Positions 16,379-25,353 of a stretch of 64,000 nt of DNA are shown one piece after another. Made by a program: the position numbers and the translations under genes. The DNA lies in the NCBI GenBank assembly GCA_016748015.1, contig JAAOMT010000503.1, positions 550,509 through 614,508 of the forward strand. The letters are read 5' to 3'. The stretch's first letter is position 1. Each line of letters opens with the position of its first letter. The DNA is from Geosiphon pyriformis (lineage: Eukaryota > Glomeromycota > Glomeromycetes > Archaeosporales > Geosiphonaceae). The notes under the pieces were generated by a model, which saw only the letters and a list, made by a program, of their open reading frames with translations, was not told where the DNA came from and made no database searches.

Positions 16379-17356
16379 GTTACCAGACGAAATTAAAGAT
16401 ATTATTTAGCATGAAATTATCTTTATAATTCCTATCATTAATTAGCATATATTATCATTTTAAATTATCACTTATTACATTAGCAAAATGTCCGAAATTA
16501 TCATTTAATTAATAACCCAATTTGTACATAACACAAATGTAACCTAATTGTGATGATCAATTATGCAATACCCCGAACTATGTAACATTCAAAAAGTTTG
16601 CCAAAATTTGTAGAAATTCGCCGAAATAATTGATAGTTCACCAAAATATCTAATAGTTCGCAGAAATAACTTGGAGTTCACTGAAATGTATCTTTAGTTT
16701 AACGAAATTGTAGAAAATAGCAAAGTTCAAGTTCATAGAATAGTGTTATGACAAGTTGTATAAAAGAAAAGCTTCTCTCTTCGAGAAAATATATCTTACT
16801 TCAGATTTAACAATTAGAATCATCCTTTATACACAAAAACAAAATAAATATCAAATAATTCGAAAAGCCAAATTCTTAATTATTTCCCCTAAAATTAACC
16901 AATTTCTATTAACAGTTTGAAATTGACTAGCTACCAATTTCAGTAAATTGTTAAAGCACTTCCAGGCCTGAATCCAAAACAACTTCTATAAATTAGTTCT
17001 TACTTTTCTTTTATATTTCTTTTATTTTCTTTTTTTCTTATTATAAATCATTTGAGTAGTCTACAGACAAGAATTCCTGTAAAAGAGTTGACTTTCACAG
17101 TAAAGTAACTACACATTTTAGTGAGCTTCCAAACAAGCATTTCCTGAAAAAGAGTTGACGTTTACTACAATGTAACTATACAAAGTAACTGGCACAGAAT
17201 TGGCCATTCCACTCATAAGCCCAGCAGTTTAAATTATAGGAGATAATTTGAAGATAAATTCAGTTATTGGAGGTTCAACCACATTCAGAAAACGTGAATT
17301 TATAGCAAACAGGCATCAATAACCATTTAGAAAAGAGACTTAAAACCTCCAGTAAC
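16379..17356 (+). mobile_element. R1 repeat, copy 1: non-autonomous element inserted in LINE L2
   Basis: The insert is bounded by GTTACCAGACG on the left and CCTCCAGTAAC on the right, so its ends form an imperfect inverted repeat (GTTAC..G..G). It interrupts the L2 ORF2 frame. It has no credible ORF. The same sequence occurs in reverse orientation at 26908-27866 (nearly full length) and 25590-25915 (partial), which defines it as a dispersed repeat. Inside are a 20-21 bp minisatellite (16615-16715) and two copies of a block with AAAGAGTTGAC followed by GTAACTA (about 17085-17125 and 17150-17190). I find no clear target-site duplication, so its class (MITE-like DNA element or other) is open. 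Confidence 0.7.
16615..16715. repeat. 20-21 bp minisatellite inside R1
   Basis: Four to five degenerate units of the form TAGTTCRCCGAAATAAYTTR (for example TAGTTCACCAAAATATCTAA then TAGTTCGCAGAAATAACTTGG). More diverged versions are seen in the two other R1 copies at matching positions. Confidence 0.75.
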
Positions 17357-19461
17357 AATAGTTAGAAAGGGTCTTAAGTCCAAAGCTGGTTTGCTTCATG
17401 ATTTTCCAGATGCTGCCTTACATCACCCTTCTTTGTATGGCTTGAAAACTTTTGAACAAGTGCAATCTAAAGAGAAAATTGCTGCTTTGGTGTTCTTTTC
17501 TAATGCCTCAGGAGTTCTTGGGTGTTTGTTTAATTATAGGTTTTTAGACTTGCAGGTTCTTGGTTGGGCTCCTCTGGATCTTTTGCAGTTTCCTGTCAAG
17601 CTGCATGTTAGTCCAGTCAACAACTTTTTGGCTGGGATTGCAAAGATTTTTTTGAGTAATGAGCTTTCTTTGGCTAACAACCTTCCCAATGCCTTTTACA
17701 GTCCAGGTCGTTTTCCACTTTCATCAATTCTAGGTAGTTCTGTGTATTTTAATTCTGTTCACTTTCTGAAGCATTTTGGGATTGCTTTTGGTAATCAGTT
17801 TTTGGATAAGAGAGACCATGTGCTAGATTGGAAGACTTTTTATTGTTGGAAGAGGTTGGACCCATGGGGCCCTGTGCCATGCTGGTTTTTGGTCGCATCC
17901 GAGTTTATGTTGGCTCAGAGCTTTTCTGCTTTCAGTTCTGCTAATTTCACTCAGTCTGTTAATACGAACATTTTAGATTCTGATGTGTTTTCTCTGGTAA
18001 AAGGTGGGTTGCATGATATCTGGTCTAGTTGCTTTGAGATATATACTGATAGATCTTTGAGAAATGCTGGCTTGGTTGATATTATGTATGGTGCTGCTGC
18101 ATATTTTCCGGTTTTGGATAAGAGTGTTGGTGTTGTGGTTAGTGGTCTATTATTCTCTACTCTGGCTGAGTTGCAGGCTGTTGCATTGGCTCTTAAGTGT
18201 GTATCTTTCTCTTGTCGAGTGATTTTACATATTGATAGCCAAGCTGCTATTGATGCCTGCTTGTCAGAATTTTCTTGTGCTGTTCCTGATTTTCATAATC
18301 GATGCTGGTTAGAAAGATGCCATATTTTTAATTTGGTTAGGGAAAAAGATCTCGAGATGGTTTGGGTTAAGGTCAAAGGCCATTCTGGCATTTCAAGTAA
18401 TATCAAGACTAATTTGGCAGCTGGAGAAGCTGCTCAATCTTCCTTTTCTTTGTTGGCAGGAGTTCATGAACATTATTTGGTGGCTGAAAACACAGTAATC
18501 TCTGACAATGTCTGCTATTTTGTAAGGGACATTTTTCGGTCTATTAATTGTGCTCACTAAGAGGCTGGGCCTGGTGTGGGTGTGGTACCTGTTAACTTAA
18601 TTGGGTATGTAGACTGGATTTCTACTGCGAAGGTTTGGCATCTGGACTCTCATATGCTTACTAGATTCACTGGTTAGAAAACTTCAAACTTGCACTCATA
18701 TTTGATGAAGGCTGTGCACAGGCATCTTCTTGTAGCTGTTCGGAAAAAACTGTATGATAAGGGCTATCCTGGCATATTGTGCCTGCTGTGTGGTGAAGTA
18801 GAATTTTCTGACCATGCCTTCACGTGCTCTCAAGATGGTGTTATTCATAATGAGGTTCTGGTTGAGGCTTCTGCTCATTGAGTTTTGGTGGCGGGTCTTT
18901 GTGACTTGTCATTTTCGGCTGTTTTGCAGATGTTGTCTGCCTGTTTTTTGAATGTTGGTTTGTATTCTATTGTGTGTAAATGTTTTGTGCTGAATAATTG
19001 GTGCAAAGAGGCTCAGGGTGTATTTGATAATAAAAAGCAGGCTATTGGTGAGGTTGTCAATTTTGTTAAGTTTGTAGCTGATTTACATTGTGTATGAGTG
19101 TAGTTGGTGAGGTCTGAACATAGGGTGTGGATGAAGAAGGCTGGTTTGGTTGTTGATGGTAGAGTTGTTTCTGGTCTGTTTCATGATGTTTCTTCTATGT
19201 TGTCGGGTGGAGTGGTTAGAATGCTTGGTGTGATCGAATCATTTGCTGTTAGCTTTGGTCGTCATTTGCCATGCTGTTTTTTTTCTAGTCTAAGTGATGT
19301 TGTTAGTGTCATTATAGGTGTATAGTGTTGCCTTGACTGGCCTGAGTGGCTAGCCATATGTAGTAAGTGTGTAAATTGCATTTAATTTGGGTCACTTAGT
19401 TTGATTTTATGTACTAGATAGCAGTTGGGCTTCACTTAATAAAAGCAGAATAAAAAAAAAA

Positions 19462-20706: not shown

Positions 20707-22878
20707 ATGTGTAGTATTGACGAGGAACCAATATTGGCCAAAGGTATCTACTCAAAGTTTGATATTTTATAATGGCAGTTTCAATAAGAATATCTTTTTT
20801 CATATAGAAAAGGTGAATGAATTATCTTCAATTAAGCAATGTATAAAATGTAAAGCAGCAAAAGCAACAATTTTGATACGGCATTCTACATATTGCAAGT
20901 AAGAATAGGACTGGAAGAGTTTTAAACATGATTTTATGAATTAGTAATGGAAATTTGAATCACATTGTAGACCATGTTTTCAACACGTTTTTGTCGGGAA
21001 ATTTCGAAAAAATATGGAAAAATCCCACTTGATCCAAACCCCTTCTGCTGATAAAGCTATGATAGCATTTTCTGGTGGTCCGTCATCAAGGTGAATTTAA
21101 AAATTGGGTCTTTTATTTTTACAAATAATGATTCTCAGATTTTCAAATTAATCTTGTGATATGGATATTGTAATTATTTTTGCGATTTCGGGACGTAATG
21201 CCAAATACCATGTTTTATGACCTTTCATTGATCTTTTCAAGATGCATGCTTCAACTTTTGCATGATTATTGTGAACCTTTACCTCATGAGATATCAAAGA
21301 AGAGAGTTTTTTCCTCCATTGAAGTATGCCACGTTGATGAAAGCATAGTTTTTCAAGCACAGGTTTATTCACGGGCGATCTTTTGAGTATACTTTGCCTT
21401 TCGGTCGGTATTTTCTCTGAATACTTTATATATTGAAATCCAATAGGAGCACACAGTAAAGAAGATCGAAAAGATTACACAACAATATGGGTATCATTAT
21501 ATAGGTTTGCACTTGGAGGATATCTTCTCGCCAGAATTTACTCCTAGTGGAACTTATAATAATCTTGTTGAAATCACTTTTGATGATTCTAAAAGGACCC
21601 AGGCGAATGGTTTATTTTCAAATCTAATATTCAAGCTCTTATTTTTCCTCTGAATTGACTTCATTCTGTTCACATGAATCAAAACTAAATCTCTCTTTTT
21701 AGAACTCATGTCAAATCTGCATCAAGAGAATTCACTTTCTAATGCAGAAAAATTACGATCTCTTTTTGAGAATGTCTCCAAGTTTACATCAAAAGAAGAC
21801 TTTTTATGGCATTTAAAGTTGAGTCTGTTAATACAAGCGGCCAGGAAAAGAGGGTAATCTGATATGATCACGAAAATTTAAAGTTACCATATGACGTTTT
21901 TCTCTGGCTAAATATTCTTGACAAAATTTATCTTAGTTGCACTAGGCTATTTATGGGTGAATGTTCGACTCGAATTTCGATAAAAATCATTTCATTGACA
22001 AGCAAAGGTCGAGGATTCAGTCTCCCATTTGAAATAGCCGGAGAAAATGCTTGGTTTGAAGGTTTGCATATTTATCTGATAGTTAAGCTGGAGAAAAAGT
22101 TGCCACGTTCTAAATATCAAATAATTTTTTAGATATAATAATCTTAAGACCAATGAAAGATATGCTTTCCAAAGAAATTGGAATATATAATCGATTTTTA
22201 GGATTTGACACGGTAATAACATTGAATTTTACATCCATGAAGCCAGCGAGATCTAGCATTGAGAAATTGACAGAAGGTAGAAATCATCATGTTGAATTTT
22301 GTTTTTACTATATTTTTCTCAAATATCAGTTGCTGAAATTTTTACTAGATTTCATTATCGGTTTGGAAAAAGAATATCCTTCGACGGTAAGTACCATCTT
22401 TCGGACAGGTTGCAAATTAACACCATCCGAATCGACTGATCCAGAACAGATTTGTGCACTATGCATGATGTATGTAAAATCATCAAATTTACACAAATAT
22501 TAGCTTATTAATTTCTTAATTGAAAATTCTAGGCCTTATCAGAAGGGTGTCAAAGATTGGCAAAACCGAATTACAGTTCACGCGAGAGAATTTTATAACT
22601 CGCAAGCTTTAAAACAGATGTCAGATTTACCCTCAAACTCCACTCTTTGTAAGAACATATTATGTTTGTCAAATGATTGTTGTGCCTCGAACTATCTTTT
22701 AGGCCAGCATTCATATGATATTTCCAATTCTTTATGTTATGGATGCCTGGTAAACATGCGAGATATCAAGAAGGTAGAGTTACCTCCTTATGTAGCCGAC
22801 ACATTGGAAAAAGCAAACTTACGGAAAAATTTGAGAAATCAAATTAAAGACTTTTTATTGGATGATGAGGAGGATTAA
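20707..22878 (+). CDS. CTU2: Cytoplasmic tRNA 2-thiolation protein 2 (CTU2/NCS2), ten exons, intact
   Basis: Partner of CTU1/NCS6 in the URM1-dependent 2-thiolation of wobble U34 in tRNA-Lys, -Glu and -Gln, in the cytosol. Exons: 20707-20743, 20808-20898, 20971-21090, 21242-21362, 21447-21609, 21703-21853, 21937-22061, 22133-22276, 22349-22469, 22533-22878. Total 1419 nt, 472 residues, no break; introns are GT-AG, 63-151 nt. Motifs: CIKC at C24/C27 and CKPC at C42/C45 (N-terminal Cys cluster), then AFSGGPSS at about 75-82, the degenerate PP-loop typical of this subunit. After that come QQYGYHYIGLHLEDIF, FMGECSTRISIKIISLTSKG, RPMKDMLSKEIGIYNRF and GLEKEYPSTVSTIFRTG. The C-terminal Cys pairs are CALC, DCC and CYGC. 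Length is close to yeast Ncs2. The start is the only Met giving a spliced frame into the Cys cluster. Confidence 0.96.
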
Positions 22879-22973: not shown

Positions 22974-24184
22974 TTAATAGACTGCTTTAATTTGGCTGGC
23001 ACAATCACATAAACTGTTCGGATGGATTATTTCCTGCATGGTCACTGTAGGACAAGGATCCATCACAATCCCACAATCCCGGCAGTTGGACATCTTGGAC
23101 CCTGCGATTCTTTGGATGTTTCCACATTGACTACAAGTCTCAGATGTGTAAGCTTCGTTCTGGAACCCCTAATTCCTCGGCTTTGGTAATCAGACGTTGA
23201 CGAAATCGATAGTGCGCCCAGCATAGCACCTTTCTAACTGTTTTTCGCGTGATTTTTTTCGTTTGTCGGTTCACCATGTCCGATACCTCAAAGGGACGTG
23301 AGTGAAAAATGTGACAGCTTTTCTGTGTATTTCTGTCGGCAAAGTCTAAGATCTTTTGACGCAACACCCAATCGCCTTTCCTAATTTTCTGGCTTTAGTT
23401 TTCTTACGTATTTAATTTATCTCTCTTTGAGCAAATATCATCCATAAATTTGCAGAGGCGAACAATACGACTGATGTCGCAAGAGCCTATTTTGGCTACA
23501 CCTTTTCTTTGGAAATATCATGTAAGTGGAGCACGAATACCAGGATCTATTAAGATTGCATGAACAGGGTCATTCGCTTGAGTTTCACAGAGCCGTTTTT
23601 GCGTCTCGCGTTCCCAGGCAAACTTCCATTCATTAGGTTTGCGATAGTAAGTGAGCTTACCACCACATGTGATCTTGTGTTGATTGGACCATTTGTTATT
23701 TTTAAACTTATTTTTAAGGTGGAGAGGCCATAATACATGTTTATCCTTAAAATTAAAGAATAAGAAATGGCATAAAAACGACATAAATAATGATATAAAA
23801 CAATTTAATAAAAAATAAAAACATAAAAAGTTATTATCTTTACCTTGTGTCAATGTGCATATGCATCTATTGCTAGAGTGTGAATGTAAGATATATAGAA
23901 GAAATTCGAAGGTAACTCGGCGAAGTTCTGAGCACGAATTGTTATGTTGTGATGTAATGCCTTACGAGATTGAAAAGAAGGATGTGTTGTCGCTGTGCAT
24001 TACGTTTAATCACTTCCTTTTGCGCAACCAATACTTGATGAATCGCTTCGTCTGTGATGTTGGTGGGAGCTGAGCCTAAATAACCTCTTGAGAGCATGCC
24101 AAGATGGACGATGGCTTTGCAAAATTTTCTTTCAGCCCAGATACCTGAAACATCATCCAAAGGAGGATTTTTTGTTGAAGTGTC
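22974..24184 (-). pseudogene. Fanzor/TnpB-family RNA-guided nuclease, degenerate
   Basis: Read right to left. At 24184-23945 is an N-terminal block (KNPPLDDVSGIWAERKFC, then ITDEAIHQVL). After a frame change comes QSRKALHHNITIRAQNF, matching the TnpB wedge strand region. An AT-rich stretch (about 23845-23750) may be an intron. Then the RuvC-I motif ILIDPGIRAPLT (23565-23525), followed by IGSCDISRIVRLCKFMDDICSK and, after stops, DMVNRQTKKITRKTVRKVLC with WAHYRFRQRLITKAEELGV (23300-23165). A one-base frameshift at about 23157 leads to EAYTSETCSQCG and NCRDCG, the RuvC-III zinc finger (23156-23060). The final RD.N.A.N motif is scrambled. Family role: RNA-guided DNA cleavage encoded in transposons. 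A TGA follows the RuvC-I motif; with the frameshifts the gene is dead. It is convergent with CTU2. Fanzor subgroup cannot be decided here. Confidence 0.85.
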
Positions 24185-24436
24185 CTAGGTTTTAACCATC
24201 CTTTTTCCGTGATACCATATTATTTCATAAGGATGCGACGACTTTTGCTCTATCTTACCACAGTATTAAAGGCAAATCTCGCCAAAGCAAAAAGAGGATC
24301 TTGAGCGATAAAACAACTTCTCGACATATGAGCTTGTCAGCAATGTCGGCTCTGAGGTCAACTTCAAGTGCCAGGGCTTAAGACCCTAGTGGAACGATCG
24401 AGCCAAGGTGCTGTCTCGGAGGTTGCTATTACTCAC

Positions 24437-24976
24437 TGTGATTGACTCTGCCTATTTGCCTTTTACTTCTGATGGGCACAAATTCTTCCAGGATATTCTC
24501 GCCATCAACACAATCTTCATCTGTCGCATGCAGGGAAGAAGAGCTTCTCGCCACTGAAGAGAACGCAGGAACAAAAAAGCACAAGGGAAAGGTATTGATC
24601 TCTTATTTATAATGCTTCATAATTCTACTAGCTCAGAATGTAATTCTCCCTTCTGTAAGGCTCGAGTCAACTCTTCACAATTTACATGAACCAGAAAAAT
24701 TTATCTAGGGAAACATACCTTCTTACTCTCTATATAATCTGAATCCGTTTCACTTTCTGATGTTGAAATCGGACTTTCTGCATATGATAATGGCTTTCTC
24801 TTTCTAAGTCCCCTACTAGTTGTCAATGATGGATCTGCTTTGTCTGACACAGTTCCGGCTACAAAGTTTCCGTCGTAGATATTTCGCTGTTTGGTGGAGA
24901 TGCACTTGCTTAGATTGACAATTCTTTTCCCATGTTTTTGCTGATTTATGAACCCTCGAATGAAAGATCCGAACAA
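24437..24976 (-). CDS. Possible two exons upstream of the Fanzor relic, unknown protein
   Basis: On the same strand as the Fanzor relic. Exon 24727-24976 is open and hydrophilic (RGLRKRKPLSYAESPIS, then SESETDSDYIE). It can splice at GTAAGA (24726) to TTCAG (ending 24554) and continue in phase as ARSSSSLHATDEDCVDGEN and IRSKRQIGRVNH to a GTGAGT donor at 24436. The splice phases agree, which supports a real gene fragment. Downstream (24400-24260) another open stretch reads EVDLRADIADKLICREVV. These may be the disordered N-terminus and first domain of the Fanzor gene, or of another gene; I do not recognise the sequence. No start codon is visible at the upstream end. Confidence 0.4.
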
Positions 24977-25052
24977 TTAACAATATTCTCAAATTAACAT
25001 ATGTTTTTATTTCTCATCCCATCTGAACATCAGTCAAACGAAAAATTTATCT

Positions 25053-25353
25053 GCGCCAGATGGGTCCAATGTTGGGTCATCGAAAAGATTTGAACAGCAG
25101 CCCGACGAAAAGTTTGACTGTGCCCCAACACCAGTTTGTGGCATGACGAAAAGTATTTGAATGCAACGAAACGAAAAGTTTCCCTGCACGCCACTTAATT
25201 TTTATCAGCGCCAGATGAGTCCAATGTTGGGCCATCGAGAAGATTTGAACAGCAGCCAGACGAAAAGTTTGCCTGTGCCCCAACACCAGTTTGTGGCTCG
25301 ACGAAAAGTCTTGAATGCAACGAAACGAAAAGTTTCCCTGCACGCCACTTAAT
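25053..25353. repeat. Two tandem copies of a ~147-bp unit (period 155 bp)
   Basis: Copy 1 is 25053-25199 and copy 2 is 25208-25353, both starting GCGCCAGATG and ending CGCCACTTAAT, with about ten differences. Each unit contains several copies of the short motif ACGAAAAGTTT (also CGAAAAGATTT and ACGAAAAGTAT). A related ACGAAAAATTT lies just upstream at 25038. GC content is much higher than in neighbouring DNA. No protein is evident; both strands show open frames only because of the repeat structure. Confidence 0.9.

Follow-up and report, generated by a model that had tools for sequence, protein, structure and literature searches.

Fanzors are eukaryotic RNA-guided nucleases. The closest described systems are the Fanzor2 elements of the IS607 type, which, as outlined by Bao and Jurka (2013, PMC3627910), share with the family reported here the RuvC and zinc-finger core, have neither terminal inverted repeats (TIRs) nor target-site duplications, and in some cases carry a serine recombinase. 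Compared with that outline, the family in Geosiphon pyriformis occupies at least 113 places in one genome, has an intron-like insert in one subfamily, encodes a TnpA without the N-terminal DNA-binding domain and has no intact copy among those listed. A DPG motif and a repositioned glutamate, described as marks of Fanzors and pro-Fanzors by Yoon et al. (2023, PMC10711439), who define the alternative RuvC-II glutamate (Ealt), are common to the fungal family and to pro-Fanzor IS607 TnpB. The TnpAs of the relatives that we set under pro-Fanzor IS607 TnpB have, in three of three scanned (two bacterial, one from a viral contig), a MerR-type helix-turn-helix (HTH), whereas the fungal TnpA does not.

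IS607 elements have GG termini and repeated motifs inside their ends, according to the description by Chen et al. (PMC6188088). As far as the descriptions in PMC6188088 and PMC4058570 extend, the IS607 family (IS1535, ISC1904, ISC1926) is like the fungal element in the TnpA catalytic domain, the GG/CC termini and the short motifs repeated inside the ends; the fungal element differs in that its TnpA is without MerR and a Fanzor-type protein replaces the canonical TnpB (model NF038280). In Saccharomyces kluyveri an IS607 transposase has likewise multiplied in a fungus, although there, in the account of PMC2715888, the serine recombinases number six genes and keep the N-terminal DNA-binding domain, unlike those described here. 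SpuFz1, the Fanzor1 of SPu-1, is a fungal nuclease of the same superfamily reported as RNA-guided (PMC10432273); the summary of SPu-1 in PMC3627910 gives it 33-bp TIRs and putative TA duplications, whereas no TIRs were found in the family studied here. In the literature searched, in which subscription papers are thinly represented or largely absent, we found no paper joining Fanzor with Glomero- taxa and none combining Rhizophagus, transposable elements and TnpB; Fanzor and Rhizophagus appear together in a review, and IS607, fungal genome and serine recombinase appear together only in yeast work.

A dead and rearranged Fanzor copy beside CTU2

The window, by which we mean the whole stretch of 64,000 nucleotides that was analysed, contains the following features.

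22114–22878, plus strand: 3' exons of CTU2, converging on the element (PF10288, E 1.7e-11 in 22114–22503)
23019–24296, minus strand: Fanzor relic, degenerate coding body and last bases of the right end (nhmmer, terminus)
23019–23025, minus strand: right terminus CCATCCG, with flank from 23018 (right-end alignment)
23026–23062, minus strand: damaged segment, with DRDENGARGIFLRAL (RuvC-III) codons and most conserved right-end sequence deleted (alignments)
23070–23156, minus strand: TNB-domain zinc finger EAYTSETC..C...C..C, including the alternative RuvC-II glutamate (PF07282, translation)
23191–23244, minus strand: conserved block KTVRKVLCWAHYRFRQRL upstream of the zinc finger (translation)
23533–23550, minus strand: RuvC-I motif IDPGIR in the DPG form (translation)
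23746–23843, minus strand: AT-rich, intron-like 98-nt insert GTAAAG...TTTTAAG (fuzzy pattern)
24279–24578, plus strand: remnant of tnpA (IS607-type serine recombinase), inverted relative to the Fanzor (tblastn, DNA matches)
24579–24690, plus strand: inverted Fanzor coding start, running on from the inverted tnpA fragment (blastn)

On the minus strand, IDPGIR (23550–23533), KTVRKVLCWAHYRFRQRL (23244–23191) and EAYTSETCSQCG...NCRDCG (23156–23070) follow one another in that order. IDPGIR and KTVRKVLCWAHYRFRQRL share one frame with stops in between, and the zinc finger lies in the next frame, just as the original prediction had described a series of motifs broken by stops and frameshifts. This arrangement is not due to chance; a block akin to KTVRKVLCWAHYRFRQRL is also present in the bacterial and viral-contig relatives. 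The glutamate of E-AYTSET-C lies six residues ahead of the first zinc-finger cysteine, as in Fanzors, and the DPG is present too. In Pfam, the C-terminal piece alone matched PF07282 at 28.5 bits (cut-off 26.3), and the RuvC piece alone matched no TnpB family. A read-through of both pieces matched the TnpB-like protein L79 among solved structures (E 5e-9), as well as OrfB/TnpB chains (E about 4e-8).

Positions 532–1778 of a family profile (nhmmer) aligned to 24296–23026 of the window. The relic had been placed at 22974 to 24184. The place is right, and the limits needed correction because homology to other copies spans the stretch between about 24296 and 23026, with the last base of the terminus at 23019, leaving 22974 about 45 bases too far out and 24184 about 110 short. 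That interval was not the whole element either: the inverted tnpA fragment falls outside it, and with the IS607 transposase the prediction had also overlooked the type of the element.

At the damaged segment, where alignments of 39 copies and of right ends indicate the deletion, the window translation reads ...GIVMDPC. In terms of the superfamily pattern D-X(125,275)-[TS][TS]XX-C4 zinc finger-X(5,50)-RD, which the family consensus contains in full, the window copy retains D...TSxxC4 and its RD is deleted. The inverted tnpA remnant matched the family TnpA consensus by tblastn (E 2.9e-23) and gave reverse-orientation DNA matches too; by blastn, positions 2303–2533 of locus L066 matched the window at about 24688–24465, again in reverse orientation. 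The window copy is dead and rearranged: RuvC-III and some of its right end are gone, and its tnpA is inverted. Locus L054 likewise has internal segments that are inverted, along with a right-end motif in inverted orientation (1053–1067, 2832–2907), so that local inversion is not peculiar to the window copy. Just upstream of the relic, at 25046–25353, there is a tandem duplication of about 154 bp with 93.5% identity.

CTU2, a tRNA-modification gene that had been predicted to adjoin the relic, was identified by PF10288 in the ORF at 22114–22503. We infer that 22504–22878, which is open with no Pfam match, belongs to it as well; the end of CTU2 lies about 140 bases from the right terminus of the element. 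Elsewhere in the window, a 409-codon open stretch (17331–18560) that matches RNase H weakly, at 24.5 bits against a cut-off of 25.8, is perhaps a LINE-type element.

Arbuscular mycorrhizal fungi typically have no type I FAS. The host had been predicted to be a fungus of the mycorrhizal lineage. Its fungal nature is supported by 11 Fungal_trans (PF04082) matches in the assembly against none in 14 prokaryote controls. The mycorrhizal part of the claim is consistent with the data, given that the assembly has no match to type I FAS (PF08354), for which 1 of the 14 controls was positive.

The family in the Geosiphon genome

Searches covered 124.7 Mb in 406 contigs. The window core gave at least 159 matches (150 of 327 candidates scored), a family-consensus core at least 169 (150 of 512 candidates scored) and PF07282 at least 67, while a guessed RuvC-I pattern found 2 places. 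When the window-core list and the list of TnpA matches described below were merged by hand and by eye, with overlapping and secondary rows dropped, they came to at least 113 non-overlapping Fanzor places, distributed over many contigs, and to 120 TnpA places (119 after merging), all of these being lower bounds. The prediction had looked forward to intact relatives in the same genome; no match listed crosses the core without stops, the longest stop-free cover being about 120–150 of 238 positions.

From 54 oriented sequences, 53 of them from genome loci and one from the window, we built an nhmmer profile by iteration; it is about 1,820 positions long. DNA alignments between copies reach past the coding core and define an IS607-type element of about 1.8–2 kb with the order tnpA, Fanzor and a sharp right end. 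For the copy alignment, 39 of 44 anchored loci were used; the five omitted represent a distant subfamily. The family consensus Fanzor protein, in which a few residues where frames meet were supplied on the basis of similarity, scored 77.9 bits with PF07282 (cut-off 26.3) and 100 bits with NF040570 (guided_TnpB, cut-off 100); against NCBIfam the consensus scores at, not above, the cut-offs. With the canonical IS607 TnpB model NF038280 it reached 43 bits, far from the cut-off of 350. Among solved structures it matched TnpB-like protein L79, which we take to be mimiviral, with an E value of 6e-24. Together with the match of the window piece to PF07282, its resemblance to TnpB-like structures and the recurrence of the sequence across the genome, these consensus scores uphold the prediction of an inactivated Fanzor copy.

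A diverged second Fanzor subfamily (SEAYTSKTCSQCGWIN... DRDVNGARGIFLRALLNGC) is present in the same genome at L063, L064, L065, L036 and L050; TnpA-like pieces are clear in L050 alone, and the subfamily has no settled place in the tree described below. At C310:450176 and C397:2607 (L070, L071), 2,182 bases are identical, including the best-scoring TnpA relic, which means either that the two contigs overlap at their ends or that the stretch was duplicated very recently.

An IS607-type transposase apparently without its MerR domain

The 5' third of the profile codes for a serine recombinase of the IS607 type, represented by its catalytic domain, and the remainder for the Fanzor/TnpB protein. The TnpA consensus scored 109 bits with NF033518 (transpos_IS607, cut-off 110) over 61–185 of the 187 model positions and 48.7 bits with PF00239 (cut-off 23.3), and it matched the structures of IS607-family catalytic domains (E 3e-18). 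Against the genome it gave at least 151 matches. Real copies reached the PF00239 cut-off at three places, two of them being the identical contig stretches; the PF00239-positive TnpA at C397:2607 sits upstream of a Fanzor. At 45 of the 113 Fanzor places listed, a TnpA lies 83–1303 bases upstream on the same strand, and none lies downstream; at the other 68 no listed TnpA is upstream, and for 72 of the 119 TnpA clusters there is no listed Fanzor nearby. An opposite-strand TnpA near a Fanzor was seen for just 2 of the 119 clusters listed, the window copy being one.

Relatives were sought in bacterial, archaeal and viral collections with a profile of five fungal sequences, which confirmed 90 stretches from bacteria or archaea, of which 80 were kept, and a further 13 from viral contigs. 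The best, from Chloroflexota, Synergistota and Cyanobacteriota, share 47–49% identity in the core, and the bacterial relatives at this level carry an overlapping TnpA. Across the 93 loci there were 51 TnpA ORF matches, and 7 of the 13 viral contigs have a TnpA. In 34 of 38 near-complete TnpAs of the relatives the catalytic domain starts at ORF residue 59 or later, and all three that were scanned (two bacterial, one from a viral contig) were positive for a MerR-type HTH.

In the host assembly, MerR (PF00376) gave no match, against 12 of 14 positive controls. An in-frame stop lies four codons before the position of the TnpA ATG in five of seven anchored copies (eight were fetched), and, as measured in three copies, the left end of the element is 96–110 bases upstream of the point where TnpA starts. 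Because of this stop, the nearby left end and the absence of PF00376 matches, the N-terminal MerR domain appears to be missing from the fungal TnpA rather than overlooked upstream of it.

Ends of the element

By eye, 29 copies, namely those that reach profile position 1820, share a right terminus ...CAATCCATCC followed by G (21 copies) or A (8 copies). The dinucleotide at this end is CC in 23 of the 29, one transition away from it in four, two transitions away in one, and GC in one. Flanking sequences past the right end are mostly unrelated. A 37-base terminal pattern with up to three mismatches was found at 23 places, and the reversed-pattern control at none. The left end begins GATGAAAAGATTTGCTTAATAATGCC. 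Where GAT[G/A] is readable, the bases before it are CC in six of nine left ends, CT in two and TC in one (by eye); where GATG is changed (L025, L042, L058), CC precedes it in none of three. Left ends too decayed to read were excluded from these counts.

The 17-base motif TGCTTARTAWTGCYTAT, with up to four mismatches, occurs inside both ends in the same orientation, giving 20 matches in 16 left ends (shuffle mean 0.29) and 28 matches in 34 right ends (shuffle mean 0.32); the shuffles preserve nothing beyond base composition, and with related copies these counts do not amount to a probability. For TIRs, the reverse complement of the right-end 15-mer, with up to two mismatches, was found once in the 54 sequences, at an internal position in L054. 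Searches for empty sites with seven joined flank pairs returned 20 matches, which consisted of the query flanks themselves and six short partial repeats, none spanning the junction.

The right end as a candidate guide RNA

Conserved non-coding sequence was predicted at the 3' end as a possible guide RNA. Such sequence is present and stops at the right boundary of the element; covariation gave the RNA structure no support. A right-end hairpin fits single sequences. In a right-end alignment (A3) of 23 hand-chosen right ends out of 33, however, the 13 pairs showed no two-sided change, with pairing at 88.7% against a shuffle mean of 88.9%. RNAalifold predicted no pair on the right end, and Rfam, searched with five loci and the window, gave no match at gathering scores. 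Since the structure tests lend it no support, the guide RNA stays a positional argument: by its position, the conserved right end would be the location of the guide scaffold.

Right-end sequences with no Fanzor among the nearby matches listed were noted by eye at C114:531870, C155:105526, C258:883256, C308:438700 and C370:1049004. These are possible solo right ends and would resemble the 'ghost' guide-RNA loci that PMC10432273 mentions in connection with Fanzor.

Decay and past selection

Copies with more than 600 aligned bases diverge from the consensus by 17–30%. In four Fanzor stretches we compared variants common to at least four copies with those private to a single copy, dropping variants in two or three copies and columns of fewer than 15 letters. 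Among shared variants 247 of 543 fell in the third codon position, and among private variants 139 of 508 (Fisher p 1e-9, which is only nominal because the copies are related). This third-position bias in shared variants and its absence in private ones indicate that the Fanzor was probably kept by purifying selection in the source lineages, each inserted copy then decaying neutrally. The N-terminal Fanzor stretch by itself showed no significant excess (45 of 115), nor did the tnpA region (34 of 91), where selection is without support.

RIP-type decay was considered as well. The C>T rates (CpA 0.174, CpC 0.171, CpG 0.208, CpT 0.185) show no CpA bias and a mild CpG excess, and it was rejected.

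The intron-like 98-nt insert matches a fuzzy pattern in 12 of the 31 copies that span the site. We read this GT...AG insert as a putative spliceosomal intron of one subfamily, in line with the suggestion that the Fanzor copy might have introns.

Discussion

We conclude, with high confidence, that the window relic is what remains of an IS607-type transposon, a copy now dead and rearranged, which once carried a nuclease of the Fanzor2 type that was probably RNA-guided. Because the DPG, the repositioned glutamate and an IS607 TnpA occur together, we file the family under Fanzor2 as outlined by Bao and Jurka (PMC3627910); its sequence points there and it would have worked in the same way, as a variant with reduced transposase. 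In a tree of 47 bacterial, archaeal and viral rows and three fungal ones, with no known Fanzor2 protein included, the fungal branch is long and unresolved; the tree was made by a quick method with SH-aLRT only and has several long branches.

Other origins were weighed. That the element came with an integrated giant virus, its copies being viral debris, is very unlikely. Relatives are encoded in 13 viral contigs, seven with TnpA, and Fanzor2 is known in large DNA viruses (as reported in PMC3627910), but the copies have sharp ends of their own and mostly unique flanks. Nor did any of seven neighbouring open stretches exceed the Pfam cut-off for a viral family; one match below the cut-off to a poxvirus envelope family (18.0 against 24 bits) was taken as noise.

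The capture of a Fanzor1-type gene by one of the usual DNA transposons of eukaryotes (Mariner, MuDR, Helitron) is known in other early-diverging fungi, where Fanzor1 is the common form (in the accounts of PMC3627910 and PMC10432273). Here such a capture is highly improbable: the IS607-type TnpA upstream at 45 of the 113 places listed largely refutes it, the inverted right-end sequence turned up in the single internal instance in L054, and none of the 20 solved chains matched by the consensus (E up to 0.01) is named Fanzor.

Contamination of the assembly by bacterial (cyanobacterial-type) IS607/TnpB DNA has a negligible chance of being right; the nearest matches are bacterial and viral contigs (the search covered prokaryote and viral collections), but they are just 47–49% identical in the core, the window contig is 945 kb long with CTU2 beside the relic, and the copies lie across many contigs, 17–30% off the consensus where measured, one subfamily bearing an intron-like insert. 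The marks that purifying selection once left on the coding region could also come from a host Fanzor gene, domesticated and since decayed. This reading has next to no probability, being refuted by the copy structure: the places number more than 100, are dispersed, and show the defined ends of a transposon together with a gene for its transposase.

For the IS607-type transposon carrying a Fanzor2, the observed homologies, gene order, ends, copy number, decay and traces of past selection on the Fanzor can be joined to a life cycle proposed on the basis of established work on TnpB, Fanzor and IS607. The serine recombinase TnpA would have excised the element and inserted it between GG/CC dinucleotides. 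The guide RNA would have been a transcript that stops at the right end, with the conserved terminal sequence as its scaffold and the adjoining host DNA as its guide. The Fanzor and its guide RNA would then have cut the vacated donor site, and repair would have copied the element back, raising the copy number. RNA guidance, the cut-and-repair cycle and insertion at GG/CC are thus put forward by analogy; splicing of the insert is likewise a proposal.

A transposase that has no DNA-binding domain and an insert that resembles an intron suggest, in this genome, adaptation to a eukaryotic host. A bolder proposal, which we regard as rather unlikely, is that of a eukaryote-adapted IS607 lineage of more than 100 copies with a catalytic-only transposase; since a transposase cut down to its catalytic domain would need end recognition from elsewhere, the ends would be recognised by a host protein or by the Fanzor ribonucleoprotein. 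In a rival to the catalytic-only reading, the lineage was non-autonomous and depended on a full-length TnpA that was later lost. If the lineage did use a catalytic-only transposase, end recognition by the Fanzor ribonucleoprotein would be a direct link between RNA guidance and transposition.

The genome is a fossil bed of this family, with at least 113 places, many having readable ends, and with subfamilies and traces of selection at the codon level. With ends, subfamilies and selection traces together, it offers a test of whether the transposon kept its nuclease as it multiplied.
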